From Pseudomonadota bacterium (GTDB taxonomy: Bacteria; Pseudomonadota; Gammaproteobacteria; Burkholderiales; Burkholderiaceae_C): a DNA stretch of 64,000 nt. How positions within the stretch are numbered: position 1 is the first letter of the stretch; the number at the start of each line of letters is the position of its first letter. A program made the translations under genes and the position numbers. Shown here piece by piece: positions 45,345 to 51,632 of this stretch. The notes below the pieces were generated by a model. The model did not search any database. It was given only the letters and a program-made list of their open reading frames with translations, and was not told the DNA's origin. The DNA lies in contig JAIUPQ010000006.1 in assembly GCA_020161145.1 (NCBI GenBank), positions 62,001 through 126,000 on the forward strand, given 5' to 3'.

Positions 45345-46979
45345 TCAAATGGGTTTGATCGAGCCCGGCACGATGCGGGCGGTGTCGTATTGGGCCAGCA
45401 CGGCCTGCACCAGGGCGTCGCCCTCGATGCGGGCCTCGGCCTGGGCCTGGCGGGCGGCCTGACGGCGCGCTTCGCGCAGGGCATGGGATTCGCTGACCTC
45501 GCCAGCACCAGCCGCCAACTGCACGGGCTCGCCCAGCAGCGCCGCCAGCGCGGTTTGCAGCGCGTCGATGGCCGCCGCCGTGCACAGCGCGGCGCGCGGC
45601 GCGGTGAGCTGCCACTGCGCGCCCTCCACCGCCGTCAATTGGGTCTGCACGGCCAGCTCGCGCGCCAGGCCGCGCAAGGCATCTTGCGCCAGCAGCGTCT
45701 CCACCGCCTGCGCCCAGCGGGCGTCCAGCGCGGTGGCTGTGGCGGGCGGTGCGGCGGGCGGCGGCGGCGCAGCGACCAGGGGTGGTGTGGGTGCAACCGG
45801 TGCGGCGGCAACGGGCCGCTGGGCCGACTGCGTCGGCGGCGCGGCCACGGCCGCAGGCAGCACGCGCGTGCTGCTGCCGTCGGCCGGCGGAAAGGCCAGG
45901 TAGCGCAGCAGCGTCATGACAAGGCCTGCGTGCTCGTCGGGCGCCAGCGCCAGCTCGGCGCGGCCTTGCAGGCACAGGCTGTAGAGCAACTGCGTTTCGT
46001 CGGGCGCCAGCAGTGGGGCCAGGCGCAGGGCGGCCTGGGCATCGTCGTCATCGGCCGGCAGTGCGCCGGGCACGGCCTGCTGCACGGCCATTTGCTGGGC
46101 CAGCCGGGCAATTTCATCCAGGGTGCCCATGGCCGACAGGCCTTGCGCGCGCAGCGCCTCGCAGTGCGCCAGCACGGCGCGGCCGTCGCGCGCGGCCAGC
46201 GCCTCGATCAGGTGTTCGGCATGGCGGCGGTCTACCGCGCCCAGCATGGTGCGCACCTCCGCCTCGCGCACGGCGCCGCCGCCATAGGCAATGGCCTGGT
46301 CGGTCAGTGACAGCGCATCGCGCATGGAGCCGCGCGCCGCGCGGCCAATCAGGCGCAGCGCGCCGGGTTCAAAGGCCAGGCCCTCGGCGGCCAGCACCTG
46401 CGCCACATGCTGCTCGATCACGTCGGGCTGCATGGGTCGCAGCGCAAAGTGCAGGCAGCGGCTCAGCACCGTGGGCAGCATCTTCTCGGGGTCGGTGGTG
46501 GCCAGCACGAACTTCAGGTATTCGGGCGGCTCTTCCAGCGTCTTGAGCAAGGCGTTGAAGGCGTCCTTGGTGAGCTGATGCGCCTCGTCAATCATGAAGA
46601 CCTTGTAGCGGCCCACGCTGGGTTTGTAGGCGGCGCGCTCGATCAGGTCGCGGATTTCATCGATGCTGCGGTTGCTGGCCGCGTCCATCTCGATGTAGTC
46701 GATGTAGCGGTCGGCGTCGATCTCGCGGCAGGCCGTGCACTGGCCGCAGGGCTGGGTGGTGATGCCGCCCTGCCCGTCGGCGCCGGTGCAGTTCAGGCAC
46801 TTGGCCAGGATGCGCGAGATGGTGGTCTTGCCGATGCCGCGCGTGCCGGTGAACAGGTAGGCGTGATGCAACCGGCCCTGCGCCAGCGCATGCGTCAGCG
46901 CCTGCACCACGTGCTGCTGGCCCACCATGTCGTCGAACCGTCGCGAGCGGTATTTGCGGGCCAGAACGAGGTCAGTCAT
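45345..46979 (-). CDS. dnaX: DNA polymerase III subunits gamma/tau
   Basis: The 544-residue clamp-loader ATPase organises the replisome. The AAA+ module has Walker A TGTRGIGKTTISRILAK, a zinc module with CLNC, CGQCTACREID, and Walker B FMIDEAHQL, followed by the SRC motif LSRCLHFAL. An Ala/Pro-rich linker (about 380-430) precedes the C-terminal polymerase-binding domain. It is somewhat short for tau (about 640 in E. coli). I saw no clear A-rich slippery site for programmed frameshifting to gamma. It is divergent from the AIR-synthase-like gene, with the repeat element between. Confidence 0.96.
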   Translation of the reverse strand: MTDLVLARKYRSRRFDDMVGQQHVVQALTHALAQGRLHHAYLFTGTRGIGKTTISRILAKCLNCTGADGQGGITTQPCGQCTACREIDADRYIDYIEMDAASNRSIDEIRDLIERAAYKPSVGRYKVFMIDEAHQLTKDAFNALLKTLEEPPEYLKFVLATTDPEKMLPTVLSRCLHFALRPMQPDVIEQHVAQVLAAEGLAFEPGALRLIGRAARGSMRDALSLTDQAIAYGGGAVREAEVRTMLGAVDRRHAEHLIEALAARDGRAVLAHCEALRAQGLSAMGTLDEIARLAQQMAVQQAVPGALPADDDDAQAALRLAPLLAPDETQLLYSLCLQGRAELALAPDEHAGLVMTLLRYLAFPPADGSSTRVLPAAVAAPPTQSAQRPVAAAPVAPTPPLVAAPPPPAAPPATATALDARWAQAVETLLAQDALRGLARELAVQTQLTAVEGAQWQLTAPRAALCTAAAIDALQTALAALLGEPVQLAAGAGEVSESHALREARRQAARQAQAEARIEGDALVQAVLAQYDTARIVPGSIKPI

Positions 46980-47006
46980 GGGGCCAGATGATAATCCGCA
47001 CCTGAC

Positions 47007-47239
47007 CCTAAACCCGGCAGTTGACCGCTGGCCGCCGCAGGAAACGCCAATGCCTACAACGACTTGCGCGCACGACCCGGTTCACCGCTTGGGTGACCAC
47101 GCTACACACCCGATCAAGCCGCCCTCGAGCGCGCTGGCGGTGTTGCTCCTCATGGCGGGCATCAGCCCGCTGCTTCGTCGCGCCTTGCCAGCACGCCCGA
47201 TGCCGGCTTGCTCGGGCGCGTTCAACTACCGGATTTAGG
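47007..47239 (+). repeat. 233-bp element with terminal inverted repeats, copy 1 (upstream of the AIR-synthase-like gene)
   Basis: The left end CCTAAACCCGGCAGTTGA (47007-47024) and the right end TCAACTACCGGATTTAGG (47222-47239) are inverted repeats with 2 mismatches in 18. The interior is homologous along its length to copy 2 (50013-50246) read on the other strand, including GGCATCAGCCCGC-like and CGCGCCTTGCCAGC segments. An internal open frame (47042-47238) encodes about 65 residues ending HRLGDHATHPI...RALPARPMPACSGAFNYRI, with its TAG one base before the ATG of the next gene (TAGGATG). It may be a miniature inverted-repeat element, or a conserved leader with a coupled small ORF. Confidence 0.8.
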
Positions 47240-48358
47240 ATGAATCAACCGACTTCCACGCCCCTGAACTACGAGCAGGCCGGCGTCAATTACGACCTCA
47301 TCGATCCGCTGAAAGTGGCCGCCCAGCGCGCCGCTGCGGCCACGGCCGGCAACCTCGCCGGCCATGGTGTTGCCGAGGTCGCGGCCTCGCGCGGCGAGTC
47401 GGCCTATGTGGTGGACGTGGGCCCCTTCCACCTGGCCAGCATCGTCGAATGCCTGGGCACCAAGACCATCGTGGCCGACGAGATGGCGCGCCTGACGGGT
47501 CGCAGCCACTACGACGCCATTGCGCAAGACACCATCGCCATGGCCGTCAACGACCTGATCACCGTGGGCGCCACGCCGCTGGTGGTGCAGGCCTACTGGG
47601 CGGCGGGCGGCAGCGACTGGTTCAAGGACGCCGACCGCGCCCAGGCCCTGACGCGCGGCTGGCAGGCCGCCTGCGACGCCTGCGGCGTGGCCTGGGGCGG
47701 CGGCGAGACGCCGGCGCTGGCCGGCATCGTCGAGGCCGGCCGGGTCGATCTGGCCGCCTCGTGCACCGGCATCGTCAACCCCAAGAGCCGGTTGTCGCTG
47801 GGCGACAAACTGGGTGCGGGCGACGCCATCGTGCTGCTGGCCGCCAGCGGCATCCACGCCAACGGCCTGTCGCTGGCGCGCAAGCTGACCGAGCGGCTGC
47901 CGCAAGGCTATCTGACCGAGATTGCGCCGGGCCTGAGCTATGGCGAGGCGCTGCTGGCGCCCACACCGCTGTACGCCAACGCCACCGAGGCGCTGGCCAA
48001 AGCCGGGGTGCCGGTGCACTACGCCGCCAACGTCACCGGCCACGGCTGGCGCAAGCTGATGCGCCACCCGGGCCGCTTCACCTACCGCATCCACACCCTG
48101 CCCACCGTGCCCACCGTGCTGGCCTTCATGGCGCGCGAGGCAGGCCTCGATGACAAAGAGGCCTACGGCACGCTGAACATGGGCGCCGGCTTTGCCCTAT
48201 ACGTGCCCGCCAGCGAGGCCCAGCGCTGCGCCGAGGTCTGCCGCGCCGCCGGCCACGCCGCCTGGGTGGCGGGCCAGGTGGAGGCTGGCGAGCGCTCGGT
48301 GGTCATCGAGCCGCTGGGCGTCCGCTGGGCCGAGGGCGACCTGCACCTTAGAGGCTGA
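47240..48358 (+). CDS. PurM-like AIR synthase family protein
   Basis: A 372-residue protein of the PurM/AIR synthase superfamily: NYEQAGVNYDLIDPLKVAAQ near the N-terminus, ECLGTKTIVADEM, the conserved AQDTIAMAVNDLITVGATPLVVQAYWA, WGGGETPALAGIV, and the C-terminal domain with VLLAASGIHANGLSLARKLTE. Standard PurM has about 345 residues and reads YKDAGVDIDAGNAL at the start, so this is a divergent member. It could be phosphoribosylformylglycinamidine cyclo-ligase (fifth purine step) or a paralogue with another substrate. The ATG directly abuts repeat copy 1, and no Shine-Dalgarno at normal spacing is seen. Confidence 0.85.
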   Translation: MNQPTSTPLNYEQAGVNYDLIDPLKVAAQRAAAATAGNLAGHGVAEVAASRGESAYVVDVGPFHLASIVECLGTKTIVADEMARLTGRSHYDAIAQDTIAMAVNDLITVGATPLVVQAYWAAGGSDWFKDADRAQALTRGWQAACDACGVAWGGGETPALAGIVEAGRVDLAASCTGIVNPKSRLSLGDKLGAGDAIVLLAASGIHANGLSLARKLTERLPQGYLTEIAPGLSYGEALLAPTPLYANATEALAKAGVPVHYAANVTGHGWRKLMRHPGRFTYRIHTLPTVPTVLAFMAREAGLDDKEAYGTLNMGAGFALYVPASEAQRCAEVCRAAGHAAWVAGQVEAGERSVVIEPLGVRWAEGDLHLRG

Positions 48359-48383
48359 GGGCCGTTCGGGTAAACTGCGCAGC

Positions 48384-48478
48384 GACGGGCCTTCCCGCAT
48401 GGAAGCACGGCCAACCGGGTCAGATGGGGAACCAAGCAGCCCTAACTGTTGTGACCAGTGCCGGGGTCGAGGCTCGTC
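48384..48478 (+). ncRNA. ffs: signal recognition particle 4.5S RNA
   Basis: The core tetraloop-domain signature is present: GGGTCAGATGGGGAACCAAGCAGCC, compare E. coli GGTCAGGTCCGGAAGGAAGCAGCC, with the symmetric partner GTGCCGGGGTC. The 5' end GACGGGCC (48384-48391) pairs with the 3' end GGCTCGTC (48471-48478). The length of about 95 nt suits the small bacterial form. A T run (48489-48494) after a C run follows and is the probable terminator. It binds Ffh to target membrane proteins. The exact ends are estimated from pairing. Confidence 0.92.
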
Positions 48479-48492
48479 ACCCCCCCCCTTTT

Positions 48493-49281
48493 TTAGCCGC
48501 GCCGGAATGAGCGCACGTGCGTCAGGTCGCCAATGCGGCGCATGGGCACGGTGAAGCTCTCGCGCCGCTCGCTCGGGGTGTTCTCGTCGAACACCAGCGT
48601 GATGCGCGCCGTGATGATGGGCTGCTCGCGCGCCGCGTCGTCGAAGTGGTAGCCACCCGAGCCGATGCGGCCCCAGAAGTTGACGTAGACGTGGTAGGCG
48701 CCGGGCAGCGGCGCCGTCATCGAGAACATCTCGGGCCCGGCCCCGTCCACGCTGTCCACGTCCAGCCCGCCGCCATTGGCCAAGATCGGCTGCGCCCAGA
48801 ACGCATGCTGGCCGTCCGGCGTCAGCACGTGCAGATCCAGCTCCGCCTGCGGGTCGTCCCAGCCCAGGATGACGCGCACCCGCGCCGTGGTCTTGCCGGT
48901 GTTGGCCTCGTAGAACTGCACGCGCTGGCGGGTGCGGCCCTCGGCGTCGCGCAGCTCGATGCCGTTGGAGCCGGGGCCGAACGCATACGGCCGCGCAAAC
49001 CGGCCCTGCTCGTCGCGCTGCAGCGGCAGCGGCTGGCCGTTGACGATGAGCAGCGGCTGGCGCGCCTCGCGGCCGGTGGCCTTCAGATGGCCCTCGATCA
49101 GCGTGCGCCCGCGCTGGCCGCCCCGGTCGATCAGGTTGGCCGGGTAGGCGTAGGTCACCTGAGCGGCCTCGTCCTTGAGGCCGCTGTGCGTCCAGCCGCC
49201 CACCGGGCTGTCGACGCCGTCGCCGGCCCGGGCCCACGTGGCTGCTGCCAGCAGCAGCCATGGCCATCGCCTGTTCGTCAT
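48493..49281 (-). CDS. DUF2135 (YfaP-like) exported protein, copy B
   Basis: A 262-residue protein with a signal peptide (WPWLLLAAATWARA). It matches DUF2135 in its core: RVRVILGWDDPQAELDLHVLTPDGQHAFW, then a later PGAYHVYVNFWG, with a final strand region ARITLVFDENTPSERRESF. The N-terminal half contains VGGWTHSGLKDEAAQVTYAYP. It is paralogous to the upstream gene, with which it shares a 4-bp overlap. Function is unknown; YfaP-like proteins are periplasmic and occur near alpha-2-macroglobulin-type genes, not seen here. Its stop is at the end of the SRP RNA region. Confidence 0.85.
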   Translation of the reverse strand: MTNRRWPWLLLAAATWARAGDGVDSPVGGWTHSGLKDEAAQVTYAYPANLIDRGGQRGRTLIEGHLKATGREARQPLLIVNGQPLPLQRDEQGRFARPYAFGPGSNGIELRDAEGRTRQRVQFYEANTGKTTARVRVILGWDDPQAELDLHVLTPDGQHAFWAQPILANGGGLDVDSVDGAGPEMFSMTAPLPGAYHVYVNFWGRIGSGGYHFDDAAREQPIITARITLVFDENTPSERRESFTVPMRRIGDLTHVRSFRRG

Positions 49282-50012
49282 CGGACGACGAACCGCCCCA
49301 CCAGCGTCAGCTCACCCGGCTTGCGCAGCGGCACGCGAAACAGCTGCTGGCGCTCGCTGGGCGTGCCTTCGCGCCGCACCACGGCCACCTGGGCGGTGCT
49401 CAGATCATCCCGCTGCTCGCCCGCGCCAAAGTAGTTGACGAACACGTGGTAGACGCCCGGCTGCGGCGCCGGGGTGGCATAGATTTCGGGGCCGAAGCCG
49501 GTGGTCACGTCCACATCCAGCGCACTGCCGCTGCGGCCGATGCGGTGACCGTAGAAGACATGCTCGCCGTCGGGCTCGATGACGTGCAGATCGAGGTCGG
49601 TCATGTCGCTGTCCCAGCTCAACACCACGCGCAGCCCCGGCGCCACGCGGCCGCTCTGGGCCTCGTAGAACGTGCGCCGGGCCGCACCGCCCGCCCCTTG
49701 CACGCTGACGCTGTGGGCCCCCGGGCCGAACGACCAGGGCCGGGCGTAGCGGCCGTCTGCCTCCACGCGCAGCGGCATCGCCACGCCATCGACCACCAGC
49801 GTGGCCGGCTTGGGCTGCGTCGCAATCTGGCCGCGAATCTGCGCCGCAAGCGCCTGCCCGGCCACGTTGACGTTGCTGGCCGGGTAATGCACCTCTTGCA
49901 CAAAGCCACCGGCGCCGGGCTCGCTGAGGCGCCAGCCGCCCAGCGGCGCGTCGATGCGCGGCTGCTGGGCCCAAGCGGTGGCGACCAGGCCCAGCGCAGC
50001 GCAGGCGATCAT
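49278..50012 (-). CDS. DUF2135 (YfaP-like) exported protein, copy A
   Basis: A 244-residue protein, first of the tandem pair. A short signal (IACAALGLVATAWA) is followed by IDAPLGGWRLSEPG, the same start as copy B after its signal (VDSPVGGWTHSG). The core is RVVLSWDSDMTDLDLHVIEPDGEHVFYG, then PGVYHVFVNYFG and QVAVVRREGTPSERQQLF. I place the start at the ATG that directly follows repeat copy 2; a longer reading frame through the repeat is open but is not supported by copy B. Function unknown. Confidence 0.85.
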   Translation of the reverse strand: MIACAALGLVATAWAQQPRIDAPLGGWRLSEPGAGGFVQEVHYPASNVNVAGQALAAQIRGQIATQPKPATLVVDGVAMPLRVEADGRYARPWSFGPGAHSVSVQGAGGAARRTFYEAQSGRVAPGLRVVLSWDSDMTDLDLHVIEPDGEHVFYGHRIGRSGSALDVDVTTGFGPEIYATPAPQPGVYHVFVNYFGAGEQRDDLSTAQVAVVRREGTPSERQQLFRVPLRKPGELTLVGRFVVR

Positions 50013-50246
50013 CCTAGAAACGGCAGTTGGACGTGCCCGAGTGTGCGGTGCGGCGGTGGGCTGGCAAGGCGCGAGGACGCTGCGGGCTGGTGCCCGCGAG
50101 GACGAGCAACGCCGCCAACGCGCCGCCGCATCGTGCAATCGGGTGCGTAGCACGCTCACCCAAGCGGTGAGGCTGGCCGTGGGCCGCACCGCTGGCATTA
50201 ATGCGGCCCGGCATGCGGCAACAAGCGGTCAACTGCCGTTTCTAGG
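50013..50246 (-). repeat. 234-bp element with terminal inverted repeats, copy 2 (upstream of DUF2135 copy A)
   Basis: The ends are CCTAGAAACGGCAGTTGG (50013-50030) and TCAACTGCCGTTTCTAGG (50229-50246), inverted with 1 mismatch in 18. Read on the minus strand it aligns with copy 1 over its full length. It carries an open frame (50014-50232) ending HRLGERATHPI...RALPAHRRTAHSGTSNCRF. The last 51 residues align to copy 1 without gaps, about 28 identical by eye. The TAG lies one base before the ATG of DUF2135 copy A, exactly as in copy 1. The 87 bp from here to the NADH dehydrogenase gene hold no other feature seen. Confidence 0.8.
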
Positions 50247-50333
50247 ATCAGTGGCTTCATGCGGGCATGATCGCATAGGCCCCGGCGCGGGCGGGCCGCA
50301 CAATCGCCCCCAAATAACCTTGGAGGGCAAGCC

Positions 50334-51632
50334 ATGCATTACGAGCTCGTCATCGTCGGCGGCGGCGCCGGCGGCCTGGAGTTGGCCAGCATGATGGGGC
50401 GCAAACTGGGCCGCCGCCTAGGGCACGAAAAAGTGCTGCTGATCGACGGCTCGCCCATGCACATCTGGAAGCCCACGCTGCACGAGGTGGCCGCCGGCAC
50501 GCTGGACATCAACCAGGAGGGGCTGTCCTACCCCATCCTGGCGCGGCGCAACCACTTCAGCTTTCTGCTGGGACGCATGGTGGGGCTGGACACCGCCCAG
50601 CGCCAGATCATGCTGGCCGAGATGCACGACGAGCACGGCACGGTCATCATCCCCGCGCGCACCGTCAGCTACACGCGCTGCGTGCTGGCGCTGGGCAGCG
50701 GCTCCAACTTCTTTGGCACGCCGGGGGCCGAGCAGCACGCCGCCGTACTGGAGCGGGCCGAAGACGCCGAGCGCTTTCGGCTCCACCTGGGCGCCGCATT
50801 TGCCCGCGCCGCCTACTCGTCGCGCAAGGTGCTGCGCGTGGCCATCGTGGGGGCTGGCGCCACCGGCGTCGAGCTGTCGGCCGAGCTGCTCGAAGCCCAT
50901 GCCGAGGCGCTGCAAATCATGGCCGACTCCCAGCGCTTCAGGCTCGACATCACCCTGGTCGAAGCCGGCCCGCGCGTGCTCGCCGCCCTGCCCGACCGCA
51001 TCTCGGCCCAGGCCCGGCTGGCGCTGGAGCAGCGCGGCGTCAACGTCAAGACCAGCACGCCCGTGGCCGAGGTGCGCGCCGACGCGCTGGTGACCGCCAG
51101 CGGCGAGGTGCCGGCCGACCTCATCGTCTGGGCCGCCGGCATCAAGGCCGCCGCCGGCAACGCCGGGCTGGGCCTGGCCGTCAACCGCCTCAACCAGTTT
51201 GAGGTCAACGACCGGCTGCAAACCTCCGACCCCCACATCTGGGCGCTGGGCGACTGCGCCGCCTGCCCCTGGGTCAAACCCGACGGCAGCACCGGCACCG
51301 TGCCCGCCCGCGCCCAGGCCGCGCACCAACAGGCCACCTATCTGCAGCGCATGCTGGCGGCCTGGCAGGCGCAGCGCCCGCATGCGGCGCCGCCATTCGT
51401 CTACCGCGACCACGGCTCGCTGGTGTCGCTGGGCGACAACCGGGGCGTGGGCAACCTGATGGGCAGCCTCTCGGGCCGCAACTTCTTCGTCGAAGGCCTG
51501 ATCGCCAAGTGGATGTACATGTCGCTGCACCTGATGCACCACCGCGCCATCCTGGGCGTGGGCGGCACCATCGTGCTGGCGCTGGCGCGGCTGCTGCAGC
51601 AGCGGGTGTCGGGGCGGCTCAAGTTGCATTGA
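50334..51632 (+). CDS. type II NADH dehydrogenase (NDH-2)
   Basis: A 432-residue FAD enzyme that passes electrons from NADH to quinone without proton pumping. The FAD motif is ELVIVGGGAGGLELASMMGR; the NADH Rossmann motif is VAIVGAGATGVELSAELLE (about 170). Further motifs are RRNHFSFLLGRMV and DPHIWALGDCAACPWVK. The C-terminus has a hydrophobic amphipathic stretch (LHLMHHRAILGVGG) that anchors it to the inner membrane. Start ATG with a GGAGG site before MHYELVIVGG. It is monocistronic, divergent from the DUF2135 pair. Confidence 0.93.
   Translation: MHYELVIVGGGAGGLELASMMGRKLGRRLGHEKVLLIDGSPMHIWKPTLHEVAAGTLDINQEGLSYPILARRNHFSFLLGRMVGLDTAQRQIMLAEMHDEHGTVIIPARTVSYTRCVLALGSGSNFFGTPGAEQHAAVLERAEDAERFRLHLGAAFARAAYSSRKVLRVAIVGAGATGVELSAELLEAHAEALQIMADSQRFRLDITLVEAGPRVLAALPDRISAQARLALEQRGVNVKTSTPVAEVRADALVTASGEVPADLIVWAAGIKAAAGNAGLGLAVNRLNQFEVNDRLQTSDPHIWALGDCAACPWVKPDGSTGTVPARAQAAHQQATYLQRMLAAWQAQRPHAAPPFVYRDHGSLVSLGDNRGVGNLMGSLSGRNFFVEGLIAKWMYMSLHLMHHRAILGVGGTIVLALARLLQQRVSGRLKLH

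Follow-up and report, generated by a model that had tools for sequence, protein, structure and literature searches.

The window analysed here, a 64,000-nt stretch of contig JAIUPQ010000006.1 from a bacterium of the Burkholderiaceae_C, contains two inverted-repeat elements of 233 and 234 bp, each of which ends exactly at the start codon of a gene. Copy 1 (47007-47239) carries a small open frame on the + strand and folds best on the − strand; in copy 2 (50013-50246) the small frame is on the − strand and the best-folding strand is +. Both are supported by their repeats and by a covariance-model match, and they are 72% identical over their length (BLAST within the genome). A sequence-only reading had described this pair, with its 18-bp terminal repeats, abutting start codons, matching small-frame ends and unrelated downstream genes, and in all these respects it was borne out. 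Within the window, the terminal-repeat consensus CCTARAAACGGCAGTTGA at up to three mismatches matches only the four element ends (0.03 matches expected); those of copy 1 lie at 47007-47024 (+, two mismatches) and at 47222-47239 (−, three mismatches, holding the TAG-G). An ATG directly follows each right end, at 47240 on the + strand and at 50012 on the − strand. The last 51 codons of the two small frames align without gaps, with 28 identities counted on the translations, and the downstream genes encode an AIR-synthase-related protein (PF00586/PF02769) and a DUF2135 protein (PF09906). Taken as a whole, the locus is probably best explained by miniature transposons of the IS1380 type whose target site, NTNAN, brings them up against codons and whose interior is under selection as a fold of one strand.

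The AIR-synthase-related gene occupies 47240-48355 (+), and the protein is perhaps a PurM paralogue, since it scores 168 bits with the purM model, below the cut-off of 236. Between this gene and the DUF2135 genes lies a gene for the bacterial small signal recognition particle RNA (48384-48481, +). The DUF2135 genes form a tandem (48496-49281 and 49281-50012, both −) and are about 39% identical; the pair was not found in 14 relative loci, the stretches of which extend only about 1 kb beyond the AIR-synthase-related gene. A composite transposon bounded by the two inverted copies is not supported, because in relatives of the genus the AIR-synthase-related gene adjoins dnaX without elements. A second genome (G028, contig C14, loci L012 and L020) likewise has a pair of inverted copies, separated by about 3 kb.

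A search of the genome and of its relatives found further copies. The genome itself has 12 covariance-model matches, the best six of which are element copies or clear remnants, and the two repeats are therefore members of a dispersed family. With one of the genome's own copies as the query, BLAST found matches in 10 of 60 genomes (own included) and, among 15 other members of the genus, in one, as a single match. A two-ended pattern run over the genome collection detected at least 120 stretches holding at least 121 full elements. This pattern required perfectly matching ends at a spacing of 220-250 bp, and the element statistics given below describe the matches listed; the length and end statistics are therefore those of near-perfect copies, several of which share assemblies and are not independent, and two of the 125 elements, ambiguous in orientation, were retained. 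The length is 234 bp in 52 of 121 and 233-237 bp in 105 of 121. The family is large and spread over Beta- and Gammaproteobacteria, with hosts that include Ottowia, Rhodoferax, Polaromonas, Thiobacillus, Nitrosomonas, Accumulibacter, Methylocaldum, Halochromatium, Thiodiazotropha and others. A covariance model of the conserved rod in the element interior matched, at E ≤ 1e-4, 81 of 321 genomes of the class and 44 of 299 genomes of the phylum (overlapping samples, the own genome being in both and rod-only matches being included). Viral carriage was rejected, as the two-ended pattern had no match in viral contigs; partial matches were found in two plasmid records, from Polaromonas and Caballeronia. 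In the open-licence literature, we recognised no description of this element family.

The family has the anatomy of a transposon. Terminal inverted repeats, short length and target duplication are all present, and a transposase gene cannot fit into 234 bp. The 5-bp repeats flanking the elements (n = 122) are identical in 71 cases, alike at four of five positions in 30, at three in 17 and at fewer in four, compared with 0, 0, 1 and 1 identical repeats of 122 at four control offsets; abutting repeats of 3, 4 or 6-9 bp were never identical, and those of 2 bp were so in 43 of 124. The 71 identical duplications have T at position 2 in 70 and A at position 4 in all 71, giving the consensus NTNAN, and their outer bases are complementary in 56. 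In the window, copy 2 is flanked by ATCAT and ATCAG, that is, on the − strand, by ATGAT (50008-50012), which supplies the ATG of the DUF2135 gene, and by CTGAT (50247-50251), four of five bases being identical. For copy 1, the right target-site copy ATGAA (47240-47244, +) includes the ATG that begins the AIR-synthase-related gene; the presumed left copy is CTGAC (47002-47006, +). The site of copy 1 is empty, reading GATAAT-(6-8 nt)-ATGA without an element, in each of the 14 relatives from the genus in which the gene was found. The comparison concerns copy 1 only; a fifteenth relative, G008, yielded no such gene. At one relative locus, L184, there is a match resembling an element end 2.1 kb away from the empty site.

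The ends of the family, CCTARAAACNNCAGTTG, match those of IS1380-like insertion sequences of other genomes. An autonomous element of this kind in a relative (L036) is 1648 bp long, with ends CCTAAAAACCGCAGTTAC and CCTAAAAATCTCAGTTGC and flanks ATCAT/TTCAT, and encodes a transposase matching PF13701 (59.5 bits, cut-off 34.7). Transposases 49-51% identical to it were found in four further genomes, two of them in one genus (L226-L229), between ends of the same kind 1685-1703 bp apart. The extended end CCTARAAANNNCAGTT is common to all five IS1380-like elements (one end has two mismatches), while the inner bases CAGTTGACC are common to the miniature element and one end each of L226 and L227. Three of the four IS1380-like elements with both sides available have matching flanks, one of them exactly (ATGAT/ATGAT in L228; compare TTCAA/TTGAA in L229). 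Nine other loci with transposase relatives, fragments or distant, yielded no convincing end pair. None of L036 and L226-L229 has a rod match at E ≤ 0.01, so that the 234-bp element did not arise from them by simple internal deletion.

Comparison with known systems places the element in the same way. We take ISEcp1 to be a member of the IS1380 family. According to PMC7864471, the ends of ISEcp1 are CCTAGATTC.../...GGAATTTAGG and its target repeats are 5 bp long; like the 234-bp element, it has ends starting CCTAG/CCTAAA and 5-bp duplications, but the 234-bp element differs from IS1380-type insertion sequences in having no transposase. Small bacterial miniature inverted-repeat transposable elements (MITEs), among them ERIC/IRU, Correia/NEMIS, RUP and CIR, are described in PMC2229807 as about 100-200 bp long with inverted-repeat ends, stable stem-loop transcripts and, in some, open frames, and our element resembles them; the same review reports a proposed RNase III cleavage of Correia RNA and phylogenetically conserved two-arm folds of CIRs. 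However, Correia termini are given there as 5'TA3', whereas the 234-bp element inserts at a 5-bp NTNAN target, its ends are of the IS1380 type and its tip is common to MITEs with other ends, and the pentamer target does not fit a TA-type MITE of the Correia/ERIC kind. TIMEs, as characterised in PMC4133298, are likewise non-autonomous, a few hundred base pairs long and provided with the ends of an autonomous transposon, but these ends are of the Tn3 family and those of the 234-bp element are IS1380-like. We consider it near certain that both repeats in the window are non-autonomous MITEs of the IS1380 type.

The abutment of start codons, which had given rise to the idea of a miniature transposon with a preference for them, is real but has an ordinary cause. 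In 28 of 118 cases the right end abuts an ATG or TTG from which 80 or more codons are open, and in 10 of 117 the left end abuts such an ATG, TTG or GTG; the first three bases of the right flank are ATG in 27 and TTG in 29 of 125. Stop codons are struck at least as often: in 35 of 117 elements the left duplication contains the stop codon that ends a frame of 80 or more codons, as does the right one in 16 of 118. Since NTNAN covers ATGAN, NTGAN and NTAAN, insertions land on start and stop codons alike. An insertion on either would duplicate the codon and leave the neighbouring gene whole, and such gene-sparing insertions would be the ones to survive, giving the TTTAGG-ATG junction. That the codon abutment comes from the NTNAN target plus survival is, in our view, also near certain. 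A transposon that seeks start codons by recognising translation signals could account for the excess of right over left ends at long-frame starts, yet its targets would not be expected to fit NTNAN, to include stops as often, or to include so many start codons without a long frame (of 57 start codons considered at right ends, 29 begin a frame of fewer than 80 codons), and we regard this explanation as scarcely credible.

At copy 1, the insertion may have had a local consequence. A GATAAT box, −10-like by eye (46990-46995, +), is kept 6-8 nt before the ATG of the AIR-synthase-related gene in 14 of 14 element-free relatives, a spacing that suggests a leaderless mRNA there. As copy 1 separates this box from the ATG, the element would now serve the gene as a long leader. 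A consensus scan of 46900-50400 on both strands called no promoter-like site and no terminator; the GATAAT box was not called either.

The sequence-only reading had left a choice between a miniature transposon and a family of upstream coding leaders coupled to the next gene; of these, the transposon stands and the leader, as a family property, fails. Translation of the small frame and its coupling through TAG-G-ATG could be supposed from the window alone, in which both copies have an open frame (62 codons then TAG at 47050-47238, + strand, in copy 1; 66 codons from the first ATG, then TAG, at 50014-50214, − strand, in copy 2) and copy 1 has AGGA 7 nt before the ATG at 47050. The TAG-G, however, which 124 of 125 copies have, belongs to the terminal inverted repeat, and the frame is open for at least 50 codons in 75 of 125 copies and shorter in 50, a stop two codons earlier being made by the CCT variant of the repeat in 30. 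Heterozygosity at the three codon positions is 0.347, 0.398 and 0.373, and the ratio of nonsynonymous to synonymous substitution rates (dN/dS) is 0.92, compared with 0.86-1.08 in the other frames, so that no purifying selection is seen (60 of the 71 sequences of the fold set described below, ungapped over the region, in pairs less than 35% different). Nor is the small frame significantly more often open beside an abutting long-frame start (18 of 28 versus 51 of 90; Fisher p = 0.52), and Pfam gave no match for the small frame of either window copy. A coding leader is thus very unlikely. As copy 1 stands between a −10-like box and the ATG of a gene that is seemingly leaderless in relatives, local coupling could have been recruited at that one site. 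As a family property, the small frame is non-coding, and the matching small frames of the two copies are the complement of a conserved hairpin. A second frame, distinct from the small one, runs open from each element into the downstream gene (445 aa, 47021-48358, +; 306 aa, 49278-50198, −), and automatic annotation could therefore place gene starts inside the elements, creating false N-terminal extensions.

What the interior conserves is its pairing. The fold was derived from 71 sequences less than 85% identical to one another, drawn from the 125; the own genome's copies L002 and L003 were outside this set. RNAalifold predicted a rod of about 118 nt, a TCACC/GGTGA hairpin of 5 bp and a terminal stem in which the inverted repeats pair with each other. 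Rod and hairpin together are located at 47080-47223 on the − strand in copy 1 and at 50029-50172 on the + strand in copy 2 (covariance-model matches of 133.6 and 126.7 bits). In an alignment of the rod alone, double changes occur in 36 of 37 predicted pairs. With the hairpin included they occur in 38 of 42, amounting to 626 double-changed cells compared with 161 after shuffling, although the hairpin itself varies little (double changes in two of its five pairs). Paired cells make up 93.0%, compared with 68.8% in shuffled alignments, none of 500 of which was as high, and sliding the alignment by 1-3 columns reduces the paired fraction to 27.8-44.2%. Read on the strand opposite the small frame, the alignment has 348 G-U and 35 A-C cells, and 34 of 42 pairs lean towards G-U versus six towards A-C. 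The excess of G-U over A-C marks this strand as the folding one. Two adjacent rod pairs are mostly U-G and G-U (43 and 46 of 71), and near the tip there are two tandem GA/GA sites, present in 40 and 52 of 71 sequences, which on the small-frame strand would read as TC/TC mismatches; at the first site, 12 of 71 sequences have AA/TT, that is, two A-U pairs, instead. The window copies agree with this polarity: minimum free energies are −141.8 kcal/mol on the folding strand versus −110.2 on the other in copy 1, and −150.0 (z −7.2) versus −132.2 in copy 2, and all four folds are more stable than each of 200 shuffles. The interior thus varies in the manner of a single folded strand, the one opposite the small frame, with a tip made of recurrent internal loops and tandem GA pairs. 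No known RNA family matched the elements: with Rfam 15, the region 46900-50400 gave only ASdes on copy 1 at 22.8 bits (cut-off 40), and 13 loci gave no match at E ≤ 0.5 on any element.

Several findings count against the explanation offered at the outset. Copy 1 keeps only three of five target bases, and 21 of 122 elements keep three or fewer. The best NCBIfam model for the L036 transposase is NF033539 (IS1380), yet its score of 141.3 bits is below the cut-off of 180, which is why we call that element IS1380-like and not IS1380 proper; the flanks of L227 (TTAAA/ATGAT) disagree, and L226 begins at a contig end and has one flank. The own genome has neither a PF13701 match nor a relative of the L036 transposase, and such a relative occurs in only 8 of 321 genomes of the class, only three of which also have a rod-model match; for most hosts, mobilisation by an IS1380-like enzyme is therefore presumed. 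The tandem GA is absent at the first site in 31 and at the second in 19 of 71 sequences. Relative to the neighbouring genes, the folding strand is antisense more often than sense (28 versus 10 starts, p ~0.005; 35 versus 16 stops, p ~0.011; the p values treat elements as independent, which those from the same assembly are not), and this bias, together with the lack of a promoter-like site, speaks against a simple role in mRNA. The bias is weaker for whole neighbouring frames of at least 150 codons, 115 of which run along the small-frame orientation and 83 opposite to it. Of 79 elements with both neighbours called, 48 have co-directional genes on the two sides, which run in the small-frame orientation at 32 elements and the opposite way at 16; the neighbours converge at 20 elements and diverge at 11. 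Lastly, according to PMC8794818, template switching during replication can make and mend stems and can yield compensatory changes in long palindromes.

This last point opens another explanation, in which the element is an ordinary MITE, its interior is unselected and the palindromic rod is kept paired by template switching. The occurrence of all four Watson-Crick types at many rod pairs is what such free turnover would give. PMC8794818 also states that template switching can account for asymmetric pair frequencies in stems, and strand asymmetry by itself is therefore no proof of selection. On the other hand, template switching copies the Watson-Crick complement and does not readily explain 348 G-U as opposed to 35 A-C cells, nor the adjacent U-G and G-U pairs, and it should not keep mismatches such as the GA tandems. 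Neither does it readily account for a similar tip in elements with unrelated arms. We therefore think an unselected rod unlikely, and selection on the fold, specific to one strand, likely.

The tip recurs outside the CCTA-ended family. The rod covariance model, R1, was built from CCTA elements, and rod-only matches elsewhere are therefore selected by it. Such matches occur in elements with other ends, as head-to-head double rods, several with ends like AGGGCCTGTTCACACT, and as a single rod with ends AGAACCTATTTCAGTAG. In the double rods L166 (own genome, C3:262238), L214, L215 and L225, the rods are 4-12 bases apart, and the ends of L215 and L225 resemble TAGGGCCTGTTCACACT. The own genome also has hairpins of about 105 bp with ends TACGGCTTCGCAATCAAGG (one with an altered end base) that lie exactly on stop codons, at C11:62819 (L167), C4:192019 (L168) and C9:68227 (L169); all three have 3-bp duplications (TGA/TGA, TAA/TAA and TGA/TGA, respectively) and a tip of the same kind. 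The comparison of tips used 30 matches from 25 loci chosen for the purpose, some of them divergent CCTA elements. AAGGCG is present in 26, CAACG in 22 and both in this order in 20, compared with a shuffle mean of 0.04, with the qualification that R1 selects for these motifs. A pattern for the ends of a second element type found five elements in four of 321 genomes, all with an R1 match (8 of 10 rods); this check is partial, as the end sequence was learned from R1 matches and one of the five (G301) was already known. A second ends-only pattern, run on 16 genomes, found one copy, in the own genome, that was already known. We tentatively propose that several unrelated MITE families, with different ends and with 5-bp NTNAN targets, 3-bp TNA stop-codon targets and others, have acquired one folded module (AAGGCG / tandem GA / apical stem / GCAACGC), and that in all these families it is selected as a single strand, RNA or single-stranded DNA, bound by a common host factor.

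Because the tip is common to element types with different ends, it is unlikely to be a transposase site. Its recurrence in MITEs with other ends and target sizes suggests that it would work to the element's own benefit in a folded, single-stranded form, as RNA or, less likely, as single-stranded DNA. That it acts within host mRNA is less favoured, since the folding strand is more often antisense to flanking genes and no promoter-like site was called in the window region; either insertions that place a strong hairpin in an mRNA are lost, or the acting form would be single-stranded DNA or a rare antisense RNA. The specific suggestion that the tip binds a host factor helping hairpin elements to be tolerated or copied is more doubtful. 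The deep conservation of the fold might also be expected of non-selfish regulatory or antisense RNA genes of the host, kept at each site for their RNA, but only one of 15 other genus members has a BLAST match, a single one, the element has a transposon's length, ends and duplications, and the consensus scan found no promoter-like site in the window region; such host genes are highly improbable.

Overall, what looked like a leader seeking start codons becomes a simple rule, namely that NTNAN duplication lets insertions at start and stop codons survive. For annotation, this is a warning that small frames and extended gene starts inside the elements are probably spurious. The start-codon fit has an ordinary cause, and the new part is the interior fold and a tip common to MITE families: widespread miniature elements (81 of 321 genomes of the class) have an interior that varies as a strand-specific fold and a tip found also in MITEs with other ends. 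If the proposal of a single module is true, it would be a common passenger tag of proteobacterial MITEs and not a feature of one transposase. If, moreover, the module truly binds a host protein, much of the intergenic 'repeat' DNA of environmental proteobacteria would gain a function.

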